64,000 nucleotides of DNA, taken from the IMG/VR virus record IMGVR_UViG_3300013212_000072, positions 1 to 64,000 of that record; one strand, given 5' to 3'. The stretch comes from a virus. The position numbers and the translations under genes were made by a program. Below, piece by piece: positions 2,491-44,033 of this stretch. The notes under the pieces are model-generated. The model made no database searches, had not been told where the DNA came from, and saw only the letters and a list, made by a program, of their open reading frames with translations. How positions within the stretch are numbered: position 1 is the stretch's first letter; every line of letters begins with the position of its first letter.

Positions 2491-3672
2491 ATGGCAACAG
2501 TAGGAGATTTTAAAACAAGATTTGAAGCGGCATTAAACGAGGCCAATGCTAATCCAACAATACAGGAATCTATAGATTCCCCATTAAATGAGGCAAAGAT
2601 TTCTGCAGATACAATGCAAGGAGAGGTGGATAATCCAGGATCTCTTCATGGAAATATGGCATTAATCAATGCAATTAATACACTAGGAAAAATTACAAAT
2701 TATAAAGATTTTGCAAAAAACTATCCAAATGGAATTCCAACAACGTTTATCTTAAATTATTTTGCATCGCTAAATCCAAAGGAATCAGTAGAACTTGCAG
2801 GATATTTATATTCAGCAACTGCACCAAAGGACTTAAAAACAAATATGTACTCAAACCGAAATTCAGTACTTGGTAAATTATTTGACCAAAAACCAACCGG
2901 ACTTGGAAAGGGAGAAGCCCTTATTGCATGGTTAATTAAAGGTGCAGTAATTCAAGGTGGTGGAGAAAGCTATGATGTTATCATTAATGGAAAGGATACT
3001 TTTGAAGTTAAAGATTATAGTAGTGGAAATTCAGCAATCCGAGCTGGTGTAAAATCAAAGGTTAGTAACTTTGAATTTTGGAGAGAAATCGGAGATACAC
3101 TATCAAGAATCGATAAATTGACAGGATATTCTGCTGGAAAACCTAAATTTGATATTAGCAAATACTTCTCTACTGAAATGACAACAGCCTCAAATTATCT
3201 AATGGGCAGAAAGGGAACTATTATGTCAGGTGAATGTAATTTAACTGACTTTAAAAACCTTAATAAATTCTACGAAGAGGCCGCTAAAGTTGAAAATACT
3301 CTACAAGGGTATACCAATGTTATATTAAGAGGACCAAATTCAAAACCAATCGAATTAAGTATTGACCTATTAGACCCTTCTCAGATAACAGGAGATACAA
3401 TTACTTTTAATATTGCAAAAGGAGACCAAACAGGAACATACGTCTTAGCAGAATTAAAGAGATTAAAATATGTCCGAAATCCAAAAGACTTACAAGTAGA
3501 CATGCAAACTGCAGTTAACCAAATTCATGCTGGACTGGTTTATATCGTCTTCCGTAAAAACACAATAAATATCACAACAGATTTCGTACCAGCTGTGGTT
3601 TCAACATCATCTTTATATTTCGTAGAAAAAAGCATTAAAGAACCTACAATAGACCATAATTTGGATGACTAA
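2491..3672 (+). CDS. PD-(D/E)XK nuclease-like protein, possible internal head protein
   Basis: 393 residues, not recognised as a named family. Residues 138-176 carry the spacing of a PD-(D/E)XK nuclease core: Glu142 in GKGEALIAWLIKGA, Asp162 in S-Y-D-V, then Glu172-x-Lys174 in FEVKD. The N-terminus has F-x-x-R-F-E-A-A-L-N-E-A, ending in an L-N-E site like the shared leader of the genes at 3855, 4316 and 42435. One reading is a nuclease packaged with the genome; another is a structural protein with a degenerate nuclease fold. The nuclease call is motif-based inference. Confidence 0.4.
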   Translation: MATVGDFKTRFEAALNEANANPTIQESIDSPLNEAKISADTMQGEVDNPGSLHGNMALINAINTLGKITNYKDFAKNYPNGIPTTFILNYFASLNPKESVELAGYLYSATAPKDLKTNMYSNRNSVLGKLFDQKPTGLGKGEALIAWLIKGAVIQGGGESYDVIINGKDTFEVKDYSSGNSAIRAGVKSKVSNFEFWREIGDTLSRIDKLTGYSAGKPKFDISKYFSTEMTTASNYLMGRKGTIMSGECNLTDFKNLNKFYEEAAKVENTLQGYTNVILRGPNSKPIELSIDLLDPSQITGDTITFNIAKGDQTGTYVLAELKRLKYVRNPKDLQVDMQTAVNQIHAGLVYIVFRKNTINITTDFVPAVVSTSSLYFVEKSIKEPTIDHNLDD

Positions 3673-3854: not shown

Positions 3855-4319
3855 ATGAAAAAAATTAAACTATTCGAACAATTCTTAAATGAATCTAAAT
3901 ATACAGGTTCATTATACCATGGAGGGGATGTTGATTTTAATAAACCAATGTACTTTACGAATAGTCCCATAATAGCACAATCGTATGGTAAGGTTACAGG
4001 GCCATACCAAATCACCTTTAATAAATTTGTTACCCTTGATTTCAGTACAGCTGAAGGTTGGTGGTTACCTGAAGAGGCCACCAAAAGTGAATGTAAAAAA
4101 TTCGGTATGAAACCCGAAGATTTTAATAAATACAAGCAATTTCCAGAAGTTAAATCAATAAAGACTGACCATTTTGTTAGAGCAGCCATAGATAAAGGAT
4201 TAGATGGAATAATCTTCCAAAATATCATGGATGCAGGAAGCCACCCAGTAAAAGGTGACAAATACATAAGAACGGATAATGTAGTTGCCTTAAAACCAAA
4301 AAAGTCCGTACTACTATGA
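3855..4319 (+). CDS. ADP-ribosyltransferase-like protein with capsid-targeting-like leader
   Basis: 154 residues. After the leader MKKIKLFEQFLNES comes S-L-Y-H-G-G (about 18-23), then M-Y-F-T-N-S-P-I-I-A-Q-S-Y-G, then a C-terminal K-G-L-D-G-I-I-F-Q-N block with D-N-V-V-A-L. This pattern (YHG, YFT..A..Y, DGII.N) is that of small ADP-ribosyltransferase-fold domains of the kind found in phage polyvalent proteins. T4 also packages and injects an ADP-ribosyltransferase (Alt). The leader is nearly identical in DNA to that of the next gene although the bodies are unrelated, and L-N-E fits the L/I-x-E cleavage consensus of T4-type prohead protease. It overlaps the next gene by 4 bases (ATGA). Transferase activity and packaging are inference. 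Confidence 0.5.
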   Translation: MKKIKLFEQFLNESKYTGSLYHGGDVDFNKPMYFTNSPIIAQSYGKVTGPYQITFNKFVTLDFSTAEGWWLPEEATKSECKKFGMKPEDFNKYKQFPEVKSIKTDHFVRAAIDKGLDGIIFQNIMDAGSHPVKGDKYIRTDNVVALKPKKSVLL

Positions 4320-4723
4320 AACCCGTAAAACTATTCGAACAATTCCTAAATGAATCCCAAAAACAAACCGAAGCCCTTCAAAAGGTAGAAGGACTTCTAA
4401 AGGGTTCTATATTTGATGATGCAAAACGAATAGACACTATCTTCAAAATGAACAAACGACCCTGTCACGAAATAGTAGCCACATGGGAACAGTACGGGGA
4501 TGCCGCCCAAACCAAAACCATTAACCCAACCGATATCCAAATCACTCAACCTAATATACAACTCAATAAGGTCAAGGAGATGATATTCAGGGACACTAAG
4601 GTTAAAACAATAAATGTAATCCAATTCCCAGAAGGACCTGTAATCTACGACGGACATCACAGACTTACAAAGGCATGGGCCCTAGGAGAAACCCGTTTAA
4701 AAGTAAACCTCTTAAAAGCATAA
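4316..4723 (+). CDS. ParB-like domain protein with capsid-targeting-like leader
   Basis: 135 residues beginning MKPVKLFEQFLNESQKQ, the same leader as the upstream gene. The body has the ParB/sulfiredoxin-like layout: I-N-P-T-D-I-Q-I-T-Q-P (about 75-85), a helix with K-V-K-E-M-I, then I-x-x-F-P-E-G-P-V-I-Y-D-G-H-H-R-L-T-K-A, with DGHHR as the signature loop, ending in L-K-V-N-L-L. Phage ParB-like proteins of this size include nucleases and nucleotide-binding proteins; which applies cannot be decided. It is followed directly by a terminator, so the 3855-4723 pair ends a transcription unit. Packaging in the head is inference. Confidence 0.6.
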   Translation: MKPVKLFEQFLNESQKQTEALQKVEGLLKGSIFDDAKRIDTIFKMNKRPCHEIVATWEQYGDAAQTKTINPTDIQITQPNIQLNKVKEMIFRDTKVKTINVIQFPEGPVIYDGHHRLTKAWALGETRLKVNLLKA

Positions 4724-5065: not shown

Positions 5066-5153
5066 TCAATGTTCCCTATAGGGCCAAGTCAATGTTCCCT
5101 ATAGGGCCAAGTCAATGGTTCCTCAATGGTTCCTCAATGTTCCCTATAGGGCC
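5066..5153. repeat. Tandem repeat of a 20-23-base unit with truncated copies
   Basis: The unit TCAATGTTCCCTATAGGGCC occurs at 5066 and 5089 (both followed by AAG) and again at 5134. Between them are two shortened copies, TCAATGGTTCC, at 5112 and 5123. Each full unit contains the palindrome CCCTATAGGG. Confidence 0.9.
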
Positions 5154-10379: not shown

Positions 10380-11762
10380 CCCCCAGGAACAATCCCGGGA
10401 TCAATGCCCGGCTCAATGCCTAGAGGCAATATTCAATACAGGATCAATGCCCTCATGGGTTGAATATACCCTACAGACACAATATGCCTATAGGCACTCC
10501 AACGTGTACACCTATGATGCGCCAATCAACAGTTGCAATAGGCAATGCAGGTTGTTGCAGGTCAATGCAGGAGAGGTATCTGCACAAATAGCACCTATAG
10601 AGTCCTACTGATCCAGTGGCCTAGGCCCACCGGTAGGACCCTGTGAACCGAGGAGTTCTGGAGTGCCCCGCGCTCCCCTTCAATACCGGTGCCGATTAGA
10701 CACTACAGGGCCTGCGGGCCGGATCGCAAATAATTAAAAAGCCGGGTCTACGTTTTTTTGTAGGGCTCCAGGGAAGGGGTACATGACTCTCTAACACTCC
10801 TAACTAATATAGACCTTTGATAAATGTGTTTCACATAAGTGGACGAATTATCCCTGGCCGGGAATGGGTCCCCCCAAGCATTGAAGTACCCTCCCAGCCC
10901 AATGGCTCTCCGATGGTCCTCGAATGGTAGCCAATGGTCCATCCCGCCCTCAGAGTACTTCAATGTTGCCCCTACCCAAAAAATTATCCCGTCCGGAAGT
11001 GTCCAAAAATACCAATAAGAACCGATAGAACCGTTACCACCGTTACTAGATACACAGAGAACCTATAATTAACCAATAAGCGGGTTACCAATAAGGGATG
11101 GTTGGCTCAGATTGACCTGAGGGTACTGTGAAAATAAGGAGACCCCATTGAAACTAAAAGGCCCTATGAGGATATAAGAGGTGTCCAAGTCTCGAAGGTG
11201 AAAGGTACGGTGACTCACCCAACTCTCACCCATCTGAGGTACTCCAAACCCTCAAAGGTTCTCTAAGATCCCAAAAAATTCCTATAGAAACAAAAAAGAG
11301 TCCCTCCTATCCCATAAGGTCCCAAAGGGGCGGGGTGGGGGCGTGCTGTAGGGATTTTAAATAAGGAGAGAACTATAACAACATATAGAACTGGATATTT
11401 AAAAACCCCTATAGGGATACCGTCGTTATTAATAAAGGGTACTGGGAGGGACACACATTCTGATACCTCTATAAAGTGACTCAGTGGACTGTGACGGATA
11501 GCGCACAACAATGGGTATTAAGAAGGGCCGCCCAATGGTCCCTCAATGTAACTTTATGTATTTCAAACGGCCTCAACGGGTCAATCGTTCTGGTAGATTT
11601 TTTAGTTTTTTTTGCGATTGAAACCCAAATTTTCCCACGCAATAGGAGGGTGTGCTTGGGCCTGAATTAGAGAAATAAAAATTTTCACTCAACTCAAAGG
11701 TTCTTTAAGTCTACCCTGAAACAAATTGGAATTACTCAATATAAATCTAAAATAAATATACT
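10380..11762. other. GC-rich non-coding island B
   Basis: Nearly 1.4 kb without a credible gene. I counted 40/60 G+C at 10621-10680, about double the value of nearby genes. The words CAATGCC and CAATGG recur: three TCAATGCC copies lie at 10400-10472, and CAATGGT[CA]C-type words at 10850-10945 and 11530. Short palindromes include CCCGGG, CCTAGG, ACCGGT and GGCCTGCGGGCC. Open frames here (10306-10611, 10748-10963, 11263-11511, 11476-11670) have no phage-like composition. It resembles island A in style. Base 11640 onward becomes AT-rich and carries the leader of the next gene. Confidence 0.6.
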
Positions 11763-19110: not shown

Positions 19111-19321
19111 TACTTACGTAAAAATATGGGTTCATAATAGAGAATCTGACTTAATGATGGATTTCTTATTAGATAGAGTTGCTGAGCCTCCTCACTATAT
19201 AATTGACTATAAAGAAGTACCCAAATCCATTACAGGTGGATGGATCGAAATGACAATATCTTATGATAGGTACCTTAAACTTCGGCAGTCTCATGACCAT
19301 GTAGATACTACGCATCTTTAA
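19103..19321 (+). CDS. Small protein, 72 aa, related to the 15941 gene
   Basis: Starts MNNTYVKIWVHNRESDLMMD, then F-L-L-D-R-V-A-E-P-P-H-Y-I-I-D-Y-K and G-G-W-I-E-M-T-I-S-Y-D-R-Y-L-K-L. It shares its C-terminal pattern with the product at 15941. Small soluble alpha/beta protein of unknown function, translationally coupled to the glycosyltransferase by an 8-base overlap. Confidence 0.65.
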   Translation: MNNTYVKIWVHNRESDLMMDFLLDRVAEPPHYIIDYKEVPKSITGGWIEMTISYDRYLKLRQSHDHVDTTHL

Positions 19322-23278: not shown

Positions 23279-24073
23279 ATGAAAAACTACAAATATTATT
23301 ATGTTTATAGAATAACTAATACTTTACATAATAAACATTACTACGGCTACAGATCTTCTAATACCTCACCTTTATTAGATATTGGTATTAAATATTTTTC
23401 TTCGAGCAGAGATAAAGATTTTATAAAAGACCAAATTGAAAATCCAAATAATTATAAATATGTTGTTGTTAGGGTTTTCGAAAATAGGGAAGATGCACAT
23501 AATTTAGAAATAGAACTGCATGCAAAATTCAATGTAGGTATTAATCCATCATTTTATAATAGAGCAAAAGCAACTAGTTCTAGATTTTCAATAACTGGAA
23601 CTTCTCTATCAGATGAAACCAAAAAAAGAATGTCAATATCACATAAAGGCAGGATTGTTTCTCAAGAAACTAGAGATAAAATATCGAATGCTAACAAAGG
23701 AAAAAAGCATACGGATAAATTTAAAGATAAAATTAGAAATCGAGCGCAAGGAAATTCATATCATAAAAATAAAAAGCATACTGAAGATTCAAAGGTTAAG
23801 ATGAGCAATTCACTTAAAGGAAAGAAAGCATGGAATAAAGGTATAAAGACTCCGGATGAAGTTAAAGCAAAACAATCATTAGCTAAATTAAATATGACTC
23901 AAGAGCAAAAAGATAAAATGCATTCTTGGAAAAAAGGTCGACCATTATCTGAAGAAACTAAGAAAAAATTATCAAAACCTCAAACAAAGGTAGAATGTCT
24001 ATATTGTAATAAAATTGGAGGTATTTCTGCAATGAAACAATATCATTTCGATAATTGCAAACAAAAAATATGA
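23279..24073 (+). CDS. GIY-YIG homing endonuclease (in phoH)
   Basis: 264 residues. The GIY-YIG core is Y-Y-V-Y-R-I-T-N-T with K-H-Y-Y-G-Y-R-S-S (about 7-27). NUMOD3-type helical DNA-binding repeats follow (S-L-S-D-E-T-K-K-R-M-S-I-S-H-K-G and further K-G-K-K-H-T copies), then a C-terminal C-x2-C...H-x4-C finger (V-E-C-L-Y-C-N-K...Y-H-F-D-N-C). The stop TGA lies inside TATGATAT, the phoH insertion site. Free-standing homing endonucleases cut related phage genomes and spread by repair. It has its own promoter inside a structure that can hide its start codon. Confidence 0.92.
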   Translation: MKNYKYYYVYRITNTLHNKHYYGYRSSNTSPLLDIGIKYFSSSRDKDFIKDQIENPNNYKYVVVRVFENREDAHNLEIELHAKFNVGINPSFYNRAKATSSRFSITGTSLSDETKKRMSISHKGRIVSQETRDKISNANKGKKHTDKFKDKIRNRAQGNSYHKNKKHTEDSKVKMSNSLKGKKAWNKGIKTPDEVKAKQSLAKLNMTQEQKDKMHSWKKGRPLSEETKKKLSKPQTKVECLYCNKIGGISAMKQYHFDNCKQKI

Positions 24074-29397: not shown

Positions 29398-29880
29398 ATG
29401 GCAAGTATTAAAAGATTCGAAGAATTTGTCTCAGAAATGGACAGAGCCGAAGAAATAGAAGCAGACGTTGTTGCTAAAGGAACTCCTGATGTTAAATCTG
29501 AAGAAGAAACAGAAGAGGAAGCAGAAGAGGTTCAAGGATTAGACGAAGCTGTCGAAGCAAACATTGGAGATGACGCTGAAGAAATTAAAGAAGAGACTAA
29601 ACCTGTTTCAGAACTATTAAAAGATTGCTACGAGGCAGTTATTGCAGAGGCTAAAGCATGGGAAGAAGATGCGCACGATGAGCATACTGTAGAAACATAT
29701 ATGGCTGAAAATGCAGCACTTGTTGCAGGTATGGCAGCTAATTGTGTTAAAGAAATGAAAAAAGACATGGCTTCTGAAGCATATGAAGCATGCTTAAACA
29801 AAATGAGCGAGGCTTTCAGTAAGAAAATTAATGAAAATAAAGAGGCCACTGCAGCTACAGACGCTGAAGATATTAAATAA
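29398..29880 (+). CDS. Acidic protein with capsid-targeting-like leader, 160 aa
   Basis: The start MASIKRFEEFVSEMDRAEE follows the pattern of the leaders at 3855, 4316 and 42435 (F-x-x-F-[LV]-x-E). Residues 35-70 are almost entirely Glu/Asp/Thr. The C-terminal ~90 residues are Ala-rich helices with three Cys. Highly acidic helical proteins with such leaders occur in T4-type phages as head-core or internal proteins. A GATATATAAAATCTAA box lies upstream. Packaging is inference. Confidence 0.65.
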   Translation: MASIKRFEEFVSEMDRAEEIEADVVAKGTPDVKSEEETEEEAEEVQGLDEAVEANIGDDAEEIKEETKPVSELLKDCYEAVIAEAKAWEEDAHDEHTVETYMAENAALVAGMAANCVKEMKKDMASEAYEACLNKMSEAFSKKINENKEATAATDAEDIK

Positions 29881-42434: not shown

Positions 42435-43223
42435 ATGAACAAATTTAAAACATACGGACAATTCTTAAATGAGTCAAATCAAGATAATATTGTTAATGTT
42501 ATTTTAGATTCGTTGGAACCTACAATTGTTGAAATGTTAGCTGCAACCGAAAAATGGTTTGTTGAGACCTTTAAACAGGAGTTTACTAAATATGACAGAG
42601 AGTATGCTAGAATCAATTTAACATACGATATGGTTAAATCTATTGAAATGTATACCTTACCAACCGATTCACTATTATCAATGAACGTGCGTAAGAGCGT
42701 TAAAGGAAATATTCAAATTGATGCTCAAATCCAAAGAGGAGAAAACACTTATAGTTTCCAAACTGAAGCGATTTATGCAGGAGGACATAACATTCAGAGA
42801 CTTCACTATAGATATATTGTTAAGACCAGCATTCCAAAAACTGGAGCTACCGAAATTGCTAAAGAATATGCAGACAAAATTAAGAAAATGTCTAAGCTTG
42901 AACAAATTAATAAAGAAATAAATAGTTACAAGCAACGTATTAAAATAGAACAAGAAAAACTTGAAGTTAACTCTAAATTAACAGATGATGAGATTAAGGC
43001 AAAAAGTGATTATGTATGGCCGACTTGGAAAGAAATTGTAAAGAGAGATGCTGCTAAAAATTATAATAATGACGAAGCATACTACTATCAAGAACAAGAA
43101 AGAAGCATCCAAGCTCAAATCGATAGTTGGAAACGAATTAATGTTACTTCAATACAAACGTGGTTAGTAAGCGTTAACAAATCACTTCAAAAACTTATAG
43201 CAAAACGGGATTCTATGGTATAG
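42435..43223 (+). CDS. Protein with capsid-targeting-like leader, 262 aa
   Basis: Starts MNKFKTYGQFLNESNQDN, matching the leaders at 3855 and 4316, with L-N-E as the possible prohead-protease site. The body is not recognised: a mixed alpha/beta half (T-Y-D-M-V-K-S-I-E-M-Y) and a long charged helical part from ~145 (K-K-M-S-K-L-E-Q-I-N-K-E-I-N-S). It is a candidate internal head protein, injected with the DNA, but it also has an early-type promoter, which would be unusual for a purely late virion protein. Confidence 0.6.
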   Translation: MNKFKTYGQFLNESNQDNIVNVILDSLEPTIVEMLAATEKWFVETFKQEFTKYDREYARINLTYDMVKSIEMYTLPTDSLLSMNVRKSVKGNIQIDAQIQRGENTYSFQTEAIYAGGHNIQRLHYRYIVKTSIPKTGATEIAKEYADKIKKMSKLEQINKEINSYKQRIKIEQEKLEVNSKLTDDEIKAKSDYVWPTWKEIVKRDAAKNYNNDEAYYYQEQERSIQAQIDSWKRINVTSIQTWLVSVNKSLQKLIAKRDSMV

Positions 43224-43296: not shown

Positions 43297-43345
43297 ATGA
43301 GTTTGGGTTTTATTCTTAGATATATAGAATAAAACCCAAACTCAT
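43297..43345 (+). promoter_or_regulatory. 20-bp start-codon-sequestering hairpin with promoter-like loop
   Basis: ATGAGTTTGGGTTTTATTCT (43297-43316) is the exact reverse complement of 43326-43345, which includes the first two bases of the ATG at 43344. The 9-base loop is TAGATATAT, so an RNA starting just after this box would contain only the right arm and leave the start codon free. Confidence 0.8.
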
Positions 43346-44033
43346 GTTTCATTATGTTTATATTGTAAAACATCCGCAAACTGGTGAATTTTACTATGGA
43401 AGTAGAACTAGTTATGTTTTGCCAGAATTAGATGATTATAAAGGCTCGATGTGCAAATGGAAAGTTAATAAATTTGAATTAATTAAAACAATAGTTAAGA
43501 CATTTAATTCCAGAGAAGAAGCATATTTATTTGAAAGAGAAATAATATTAAAAAATATAAGACATTCATTAAATAGAAATTATGCAATTCCATCAAAACA
43601 CGGTGCCGGCGCACTACCTGGTCCAAAAAATTCTTTTTTTGGTAAAAAACACACCGATGAATCTTTAATTAAAATGAAAGAAAACTCAAATAATGCAGGC
43701 GTTAATAATCCAATGTTTGGAAAAGAGCATAAAGATGTATCTAAAAAGAAAATGTCTATTAAAAAAATAGGCCTTTACAATGGCGTAAATAATCCGATGT
43801 CTAAAAAACTATATCAATATGATATAAATGGAAATCTAATGAATATATGGGATTGTGCAACTCTATGCGTGAAACATTATGGTGATATTGGTATTAATTT
43901 ATCTAGAGGTAATATTTCCAATAGCGCAAAAAACAATTCAATTGAAGATACTTCGTTAAAAAGATTAAATGTATTTATCTTTTCATTTTCAGAGATAGAT
44001 ATAGTTAGATTTAATAAATTTAAAAATAAGTAA
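43344..44033 (+). CDS. GIY-YIG homing endonuclease
   Basis: 229 residues. GIY-YIG core Y-V-Y-I-V...F-Y-Y-G-S-R-T (4-21), then NUMOD3 motifs (N-S-F-F-G-K-K-H-T-D-E-S and N-P-M-F-G-K-E-H-K-D) and a NUMOD1-like segment (K-L-Y-Q-Y-D-I-N-G-N-L...W-D-C-A-T). It is located between a leader-bearing gene and the amidoligase-like gene; no displaced gene end is visible on either side. Expression is probably delayed by the hairpin covering its start. Confidence 0.92.
   Translation: MFHYVYIVKHPQTGEFYYGSRTSYVLPELDDYKGSMCKWKVNKFELIKTIVKTFNSREEAYLFEREIILKNIRHSLNRNYAIPSKHGAGALPGPKNSFFGKKHTDESLIKMKENSNNAGVNNPMFGKEHKDVSKKKMSIKKIGLYNGVNNPMSKKLYQYDINGNLMNIWDCATLCVKHYGDIGINLSRGNISNSAKNNSIEDTSLKRLNVFIFSFSEIDIVRFNKFKNK

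Follow-up and report, generated by a model that had tools for sequence, protein, structure and literature searches.

The internal proteins IPI-IPIII and Alt of phage T4 carry an N-terminal targeting peptide (CTS) that is cut by gp21; the T-even internal proteins share the CTS only, and this peptide allows foreign proteins to be packaged (PMC3012670). Head-packed and protease-processed ejection proteins are also found in giant phages of the SPN3US/phiKZ type, and most of the SPN3US propeptides are long ones, three of them of 124-127 residues, with no common short tag (PMC5694885). In phage P1, DarB is packed into the capsid by means of an N-terminal signal, to which a reporter can be attached (PMC9024508). 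This signal lies within the N-terminus of a single 250-kDa protein and possibly depends on tertiary structure, and a repeated short leader has not been described for it. Polyvalent proteins and MuF polymorphic toxins join their domains in one chain or to MuF, and ART, ParB/Srx and 2H phosphoesterase domains are typical of the injected polyvalent proteins (PMC5512222).

The window analysed here is the first 64,000 bases of a virus record of 81,298 bases, in which 92 genes were counted altogether. Like the T4 CTS proteins, several of its genes combine a common leader, 10-13 N-terminal residues ending in F/Y-x-x-F-[ILV]-x-E, with unrelated cargo; an S77 protease and T4-like head genes are encoded in related records. 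Unlike T4, which has a handful of tagged genes, the larger records have 16-36 each, the leaders form dialects that vary by phage, and some tagged proteins are chains of several modules. The likeness to SPN3US lies in a giant phage with head-packed, processed proteins, which in our case are predicted from genes. With the polyvalent proteins and MuF toxins the cargo has overlapping domains (ART, ParB/Srx, 2H phosphoesterase), and in L026 a minor head protein of the MuF type is joined with the ParB-like body; whereas those systems fuse their domains, here each module usually has its own predicted cleavable tag. The T4 CTS was thus already known; what is new is the scale, together with the dialects, tagged chains and module exchange. 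No description of an expanded tag set of this kind was found in the open-access literature searched, whose coverage was incomplete.

Leader genes of the record

The features of the window are as follows, with the evidence at the end of each line; G002, G003, G004 and G009 are related records, and an arrow marks a putative cut.

3855..3893, + strand: leader of gene 3855 (MKKIKLFEQFLNE), predicted to be cut after E13; sequence, which fits the consensus of the 176 leaders
3894..4319, + strand: body of gene 3855, 141 aa, weakly ADP-ribosyltransferase-like; Pfam ART-PolyVal, below the cut-off
4316..4354, + strand: leader of gene 4316 (MKPVKLFEQFLNE), predicted to be cut after E13; sequence
4355..4723, + strand: body of gene 4316, 122 aa, modelled ParB/sulfiredoxin fold, DGHHR motif; model, Foldseek, phrog_1033
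29398..29436, + strand: leader of gene 29398 (MASIKRFEEFVSE), less typical, with M at P1′; sequence
29437..29880, + strand: body of gene 29398, 147 aa, very acidic; sequence, the leader being kept in the G002-G004 orthologues
42435..42473, + strand: leader of gene 42435 (MNKFKTYGQFLNE); sequence
42474..43223, + strand: body of gene 42435, 249 aa, no family match in Pfam or PHROGs; leader-bearing orthologues in G002, G003, G004 and G009
2491..3672, + strand: 393-aa protein, speculatively a further processed one, whose first 34 residues contain three LxE-type sites (ALNE↓A, TIQE↓S and PLNE↓A); sequence

From their ATG codons, genes 3855 and 4316 read MKKIKLFEQFLNESKY and MKPVKLFEQFLNESQK, and the common leader is KLFEQFLNE↓S. 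The sequence-only reading had described nearly identical DNA at the two starts followed by full divergence, and this was borne out: 30 of 33 bases are identical from codon 5 on, with AAACTATTCGAACAATTC exact in both, and blastp detects no similarity between the two bodies. The stop codon of gene 3855 and the start codon of gene 4316 overlap as ATGA, so the two genes are probably co-translated. Genes 42435 and 29398, which start with MNKFKTYGQFLNES and MASIKRFEEFVSEM, do have the Q-F-L-N-E-S and E-F-V-S-E that had been ascribed to them, and the body of the latter may perhaps be a prohead core protein. A fifth leader gene, starting with MKTFLDYITEQN, lies beyond the window at L001:9081-9449 (record 73081-73449). 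The strict pattern [FY]xx[FY][LIVM]xE near the protein start is matched by 5 of the 92 genes of the record, against an expectation of 0.00 from the density inside proteins or 0.07 from shuffled N-termini (Poisson P ~1e-8).

Other parts of the window have features of their own. Directly after the leader pair, positions 5066-5153 hold 3.9 tandem copies of a 23-bp unit, TCAATGTTCCCTATAGGGCCAAG, with the palindrome CCCTATAGGG and no convincing genes, and only short, unconvincing ORFs are found at 10400-11760. Rfam families matched nowhere in the window. The protein at 44038-45330 matches Amidoligase_2 (Pfam E 7.4e-6) and has a weak pentapeptide-repeat tail. Those encoded at 23279-24073, 43344-44033 and L001:10194-10907 are similar to one another, with YYYVYR, YVYIVK and YHYIYR starts, and look by eye like GIY-YIG homing endonucleases.

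Leader sets, dialects and head genes of related phages

Long viral contigs were reached through the relatives of gene 4316. Three of them, G002, G003 and G004, align with the record over 86-88% of its length, at 83-86% nucleotide identity (88% and 85.6% for G002). The search for further leader starts that the sequence-only reading had proposed was productive, with 171 in eight related records beside the five of the record itself: 29 in G002, 26 in G003, 16 in G004, 36 in G006, 20 in G008, 12 in G009, 8 in G011 and 24 in the first 400 kb of LR756500, a 462-kb uncultured phage. These 176 leader genes fall by blastp into about 100 unrelated body families, of which a few singletons are probably chance matches. 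Many of the families are confined to a single phage, which indicates that the cargo changes fast between relatives. In LR756500 (L179-L198), seven leader proteins are related to one another, at least some of them with leucine-rich repeats (LRR), and apparently represent a paralogous expansion behind the tag. The alignment of 89 family representatives gives the consensus MKxIKxFExFxNE, with conservation only through E13. When 2.9 million viral contigs were scanned at the DNA level with a degenerate pattern for KLFE[QE]F[VIM]NE, 89 matches were obtained in 83 stretches, every one of them within 8 codons of a start Met. A convincing leader set was not found in PTm1 or MaF61 with the patterns used, tblastn of gene 4316 matched no named phage, and no relatives of its ParB-like body were confirmed in GTDB genomes. 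Since the nearest named relatives are phages of Tenacibaculum, Flavobacterium, Chryseobacterium and Prevotella, together with PAU, the host is likely a member of the Bacteroidota.

In 60 of 100 families the leader E is followed, at P1′, by S, A or G (binomial P=4.5e-22). The background frequency is 17% behind any E and 14% behind copies of the motif inside proteins, and from P2′ onward the leader proteins return to background composition. About 40% of the families, including that of gene 29398, have another residue at P1′. Because the bodies are unrelated, this preference, lost again one residue later, is best explained as the mark of a protease site. Between orthologous bodies of different clades the likeness of the leaders is 0.49, compared with 0.50 for unrelated genes within one genome; the leader therefore acts like a tag that can be swapped. 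Internal [LIV]xE[SAG] sites are denser in leader proteins (4.32 vs 3.11 per 1000 aa), but this was rejected as a signal, as the K control gave 4.68 vs 2.97, and among internal sites the ESxVxE linker alone stands out. The laxer N-terminal count of [LIVMF]xE[SAG] separates genomes weakly and exposed the PAU dialect.

The gp21-type protease to which the sequence-only reading had pointed was found in a related record. In the 81-kb record, a fragment with tail genes, no S77 protease was matched and no head genes were identified, but G002 encodes such a protease (Pfam S77) beside its portal and major capsid genes. The G002 cluster runs from the portal (phrog_213, E 1.7e-69) through a 116-aa protein starting with MKIIKTFEEF and the head maturation protease (phrog_207, E 1.5e-40) to the major capsid protein (phrog_138, with a PDB match to T4 gp23), an order that resembles 20-67/68-21-22-23 of T4. 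T4 gp21 and the proteases of 11 phages have in common the motifs GExxHP and S[ST]R, which we take to contain the active-site His and Ser. At L042:5510-7432, an S77 protease domain forms the N-terminus of a 640-aa protein whose remainder may be scaffold. The likeness to T4 internal proteins that had been claimed for the leader also holds, for ipII and ipIII carry MKTYQEFIAE, and among the called T4 genes of at least 60 aa the strict pattern matches these two and no other; this control left out 8.9 kb of T4, and ipI was not recovered. A six-frame search of T4 down to 50 aa brought up two further CTS-like ORF starts, MLLEFKQFLYEA at 114210 (+) and MKTFKEFIKED at 19130 (-).

Other phages have leaders of different wording. 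The more distant G001 carries MIKLKDLLKE on about ten genes and has the ART-like body in common with the window, and L200 has MTTFKKYDEFLNE. In the cultured phage PAU, 20 genes begin with an MKT[LI]xxLYE-like start where 0.38 are expected, and S or A follows in 16 of them. Two of these genes, PAU_142 and PAU_154, were named internal capsid protein by the depositors and a third, PAU_152, scaffolding; the neighbouring number PAU_151 bears the name capsid maturation protease, and in PAU_70, also named internal capsid protein, a PAU-type leader was not found. On the basis of N-terminal sequencing, the PAU capsid protein is reported to retain 520 of 585 residues (PMC5646251). This N-terminus lies one residue beyond an L-M-E site and not exactly on it. 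Two other cultured Bacteroidota phages possibly have leaders of their own, namely xxYIxE in pT24 (W03), in one case on a YHGT ART-like protein, and xxFINE↓A/S in MA9V-1 (W06).

Cargo bodies, module exchange and tagged chains

Names given to the cargo denote family resemblances. The body of gene 3855 matches Pfam ART-PolyVal (PF18760) with E=0.0074 and 17.5 bits, below the curated cut-off of 31.2; a profile search of PDB returned no ART and nothing useful, and the AlphaFold2 model, built from 3 sequences, has a pLDDT of 45.7 and no usable fold. The protein is thus weakly ART-like. For the body of gene 4316 the AlphaFold2 model reaches a pLDDT of 86.3, and Foldseek aligns it with sulfiredoxin, ParB and free serine kinase at probability 1.00 (best E 8.4e-4; TM by query 0.39-0.47). 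It also matches phrog_1033 (E=0.0014), and its DGHHR motif is invariant in 11 aligned sequences. Both the modelled fold and the active-site motif place this body in the ParB/sulfiredoxin superfamily. In L026, from an unrelated phage, a head morphogenesis/minor head protein encoded between portal and capsid genes carries the ParB-like body as a fusion, which on gene content constitutes a second, independent link of this body to the head; the MuF-type part is matched by PHROGs and not by Pfam. No MuF domain was matched in the leader genes of the window by Pfam or PHROGs, and genes 3855 and 4316, with 154 and 135 aa, are too short for more than one domain and hence not polyvalent. Elsewhere, the tagged bodies include an Acb1-like anti-CBASS protein (31.3 bits against a Pfam cut-off of 27, with two HxT motifs), a RimK ATP-grasp protein, an AAA/zeta-toxin-like kinase, a polynucleotide 3′-phosphatase, a DUF2201 metallopeptidase-like protein and LRR proteins. 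In family scans no cargo matched the T4 internal proteins.

Bodies that stand alone behind a leader in one phage recur inside longer ORFs of another, and in both settings x-E directly precedes the same residue. Thus FLNE↓SKYTGSLYHGG of the window corresponds to LLKE↓SKYSELLYHGG inside a 322-aa G001 protein, FVNE↓AKDATRDE of G003 to IVNE↓AKDATREE inside a 381-aa L005 protein, and FINE↓AKDVDSAM occurs in G006 and, internally, in L020. Of 41 junctions, 23 have an E exactly in front of the body, and 11 of the 12 families show this at least once, the junctions of related records not being independent; some junctions have no E at the exact aligned position. The ART-like body is found in copies of 75-80% identity behind the two different leaders of G001 and L200. 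A 1029-aa G002 protein, whose orthologue starts in the record itself (L001:15731 to the end), contains eight linkers that follow the pattern ESVVNE↓G/A/S, and five proteins with at least three linkers of this type occur in seven genomes vs none in shuffled sequences.

Function and significance of the leaders

It is very probable that the leaders are capsid-targeting propeptides like that of T4, borne by a much enlarged set of proteins that are packed into the head and probably injected. From the computed features, namely the shared leader, the P1′ preference, the conservation at the protein level, the protease, portal and capsid genes of the relatives with their order, and the junctions at module borders, we infer targeting, cleavage, packaging, injection and the activities of the cargo. 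By analogy with T4, the leader would dock the tagged protein into the prohead core (PMC3012670, PMC5694885). The P1′ signature and the presence of the protease suggest that a gp21-type (S77) prohead protease would then cut after the final E of [LIV]-x-E. The cargo would stay in the capsid beside the DNA and enter the bacterium at infection. With unrelated bodies and exchangeable leaders, any protein might be taggable in this way, and some cargoes would be strung as chains with further cut sites between the modules. Once inside, the cargo may act early in counter-defence and host takeover, as the ART-like, ParB/Srx-fold, Acb1-like, AAA/zeta-like and RimK-like bodies suggest, an assignment that is speculative for most of them.

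A head-targeting tag that is cut could also be borne by scaffold or core proteins, which act inside the capsid in assembly or DNA condensation and are not injected effectors. The leader gene annotated as scaffolding in PAU, the G001 ORF ahead of the capsid gene with its local leader MKDLLKEA, and the high acidity of gene 29398, as in core proteins, fit such a role. For Acb1-like, RimK, AAA/zeta-like and PNK phosphatase bodies among the 16-36 tagged genes of each larger record, however, an assembly role is not obvious, and the cargo turns over fast between relatives, with many single-phage families; as an account of the set we consider it unlikely. Much the same leader might serve as a cytosolic sorting signal, for example to a phage compartment, that the prohead protease leaves uncut, as a short amphipathic N-terminal tag could fit many sorting machines. 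This is very unlikely, given the sharp S/A/G at P1′ with conservation lost thereafter, the recurrence of the motif class at junctions within chains, the identity in type with the leaders of T4 ipII and ipIII, and the PAU leader on a scaffolding gene.

If the shared start were a DNA-level element, such as a hot spot for recombination or insertion, an enhancer of translation or the trace of a recent duplication, one could understand the 30 of 33 common bases of two adjacent genes and the clustering of leader genes (15 adjacent pairs vs 2.8 expected in G002). Yet synonymous codons in the leaders follow genome usage in seven genomes (0.62 observed vs 0.57 expected in G002, 0.54 and 0.54 in G003), so selection acts on the peptide and DNA-level conservation of the leader was rejected; leaders of other phages retain the amino-acid pattern only, near-identical leader DNA is confined to the pair 3855/4316 and conservation in general is at the protein level. 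Such an element is accordingly highly improbable as the source of the shared start. The common N-terminus and the clustering might also be those of one paralogous family whose bodies have diverged past recognition. Simple paralogy was rejected on account of the unrelated bodies, and even the diverged form is extremely hard to credit when the bodies match different folds and families (the ParB/Srx model, RimK, Acb1, LRR, AAA) and one body is found with several different leaders and also leaderless in the MuF-type fusion.

Returning to targeting propeptides on injected cargo, we would go further, with distinctly less assurance, and propose as somewhat probable that a general plug-in system operates in giant T4-like phages, whose hosts are probably Bacteroidota. 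Together with the prohead protease, a leader specific to the phage would make any protein or chain a head-packed cargo, which would be cut into modules in the capsid and injected. Dialects would match the core and protease of their own phage, and modules would pass from phage to phage, between the single-gene and the chain form, and between the tag route and MuF-type fusions.

It usually takes virion proteomics and infection assays to learn which proteins a phage injects. Should the leader prove to be a genuine packaging tag, sequence would suffice to read off the injected proteins of giant phages that have not been cultured. Dozens of mostly unannotated families, several of them resembling counter-defence enzymes, could then be ranked as candidates for a part in anti-defence and takeover. 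Dialects that differ on one and the same cargo would show what the prohead core and the protease recognise, and might furnish new tags with which to load proteins into phage heads.
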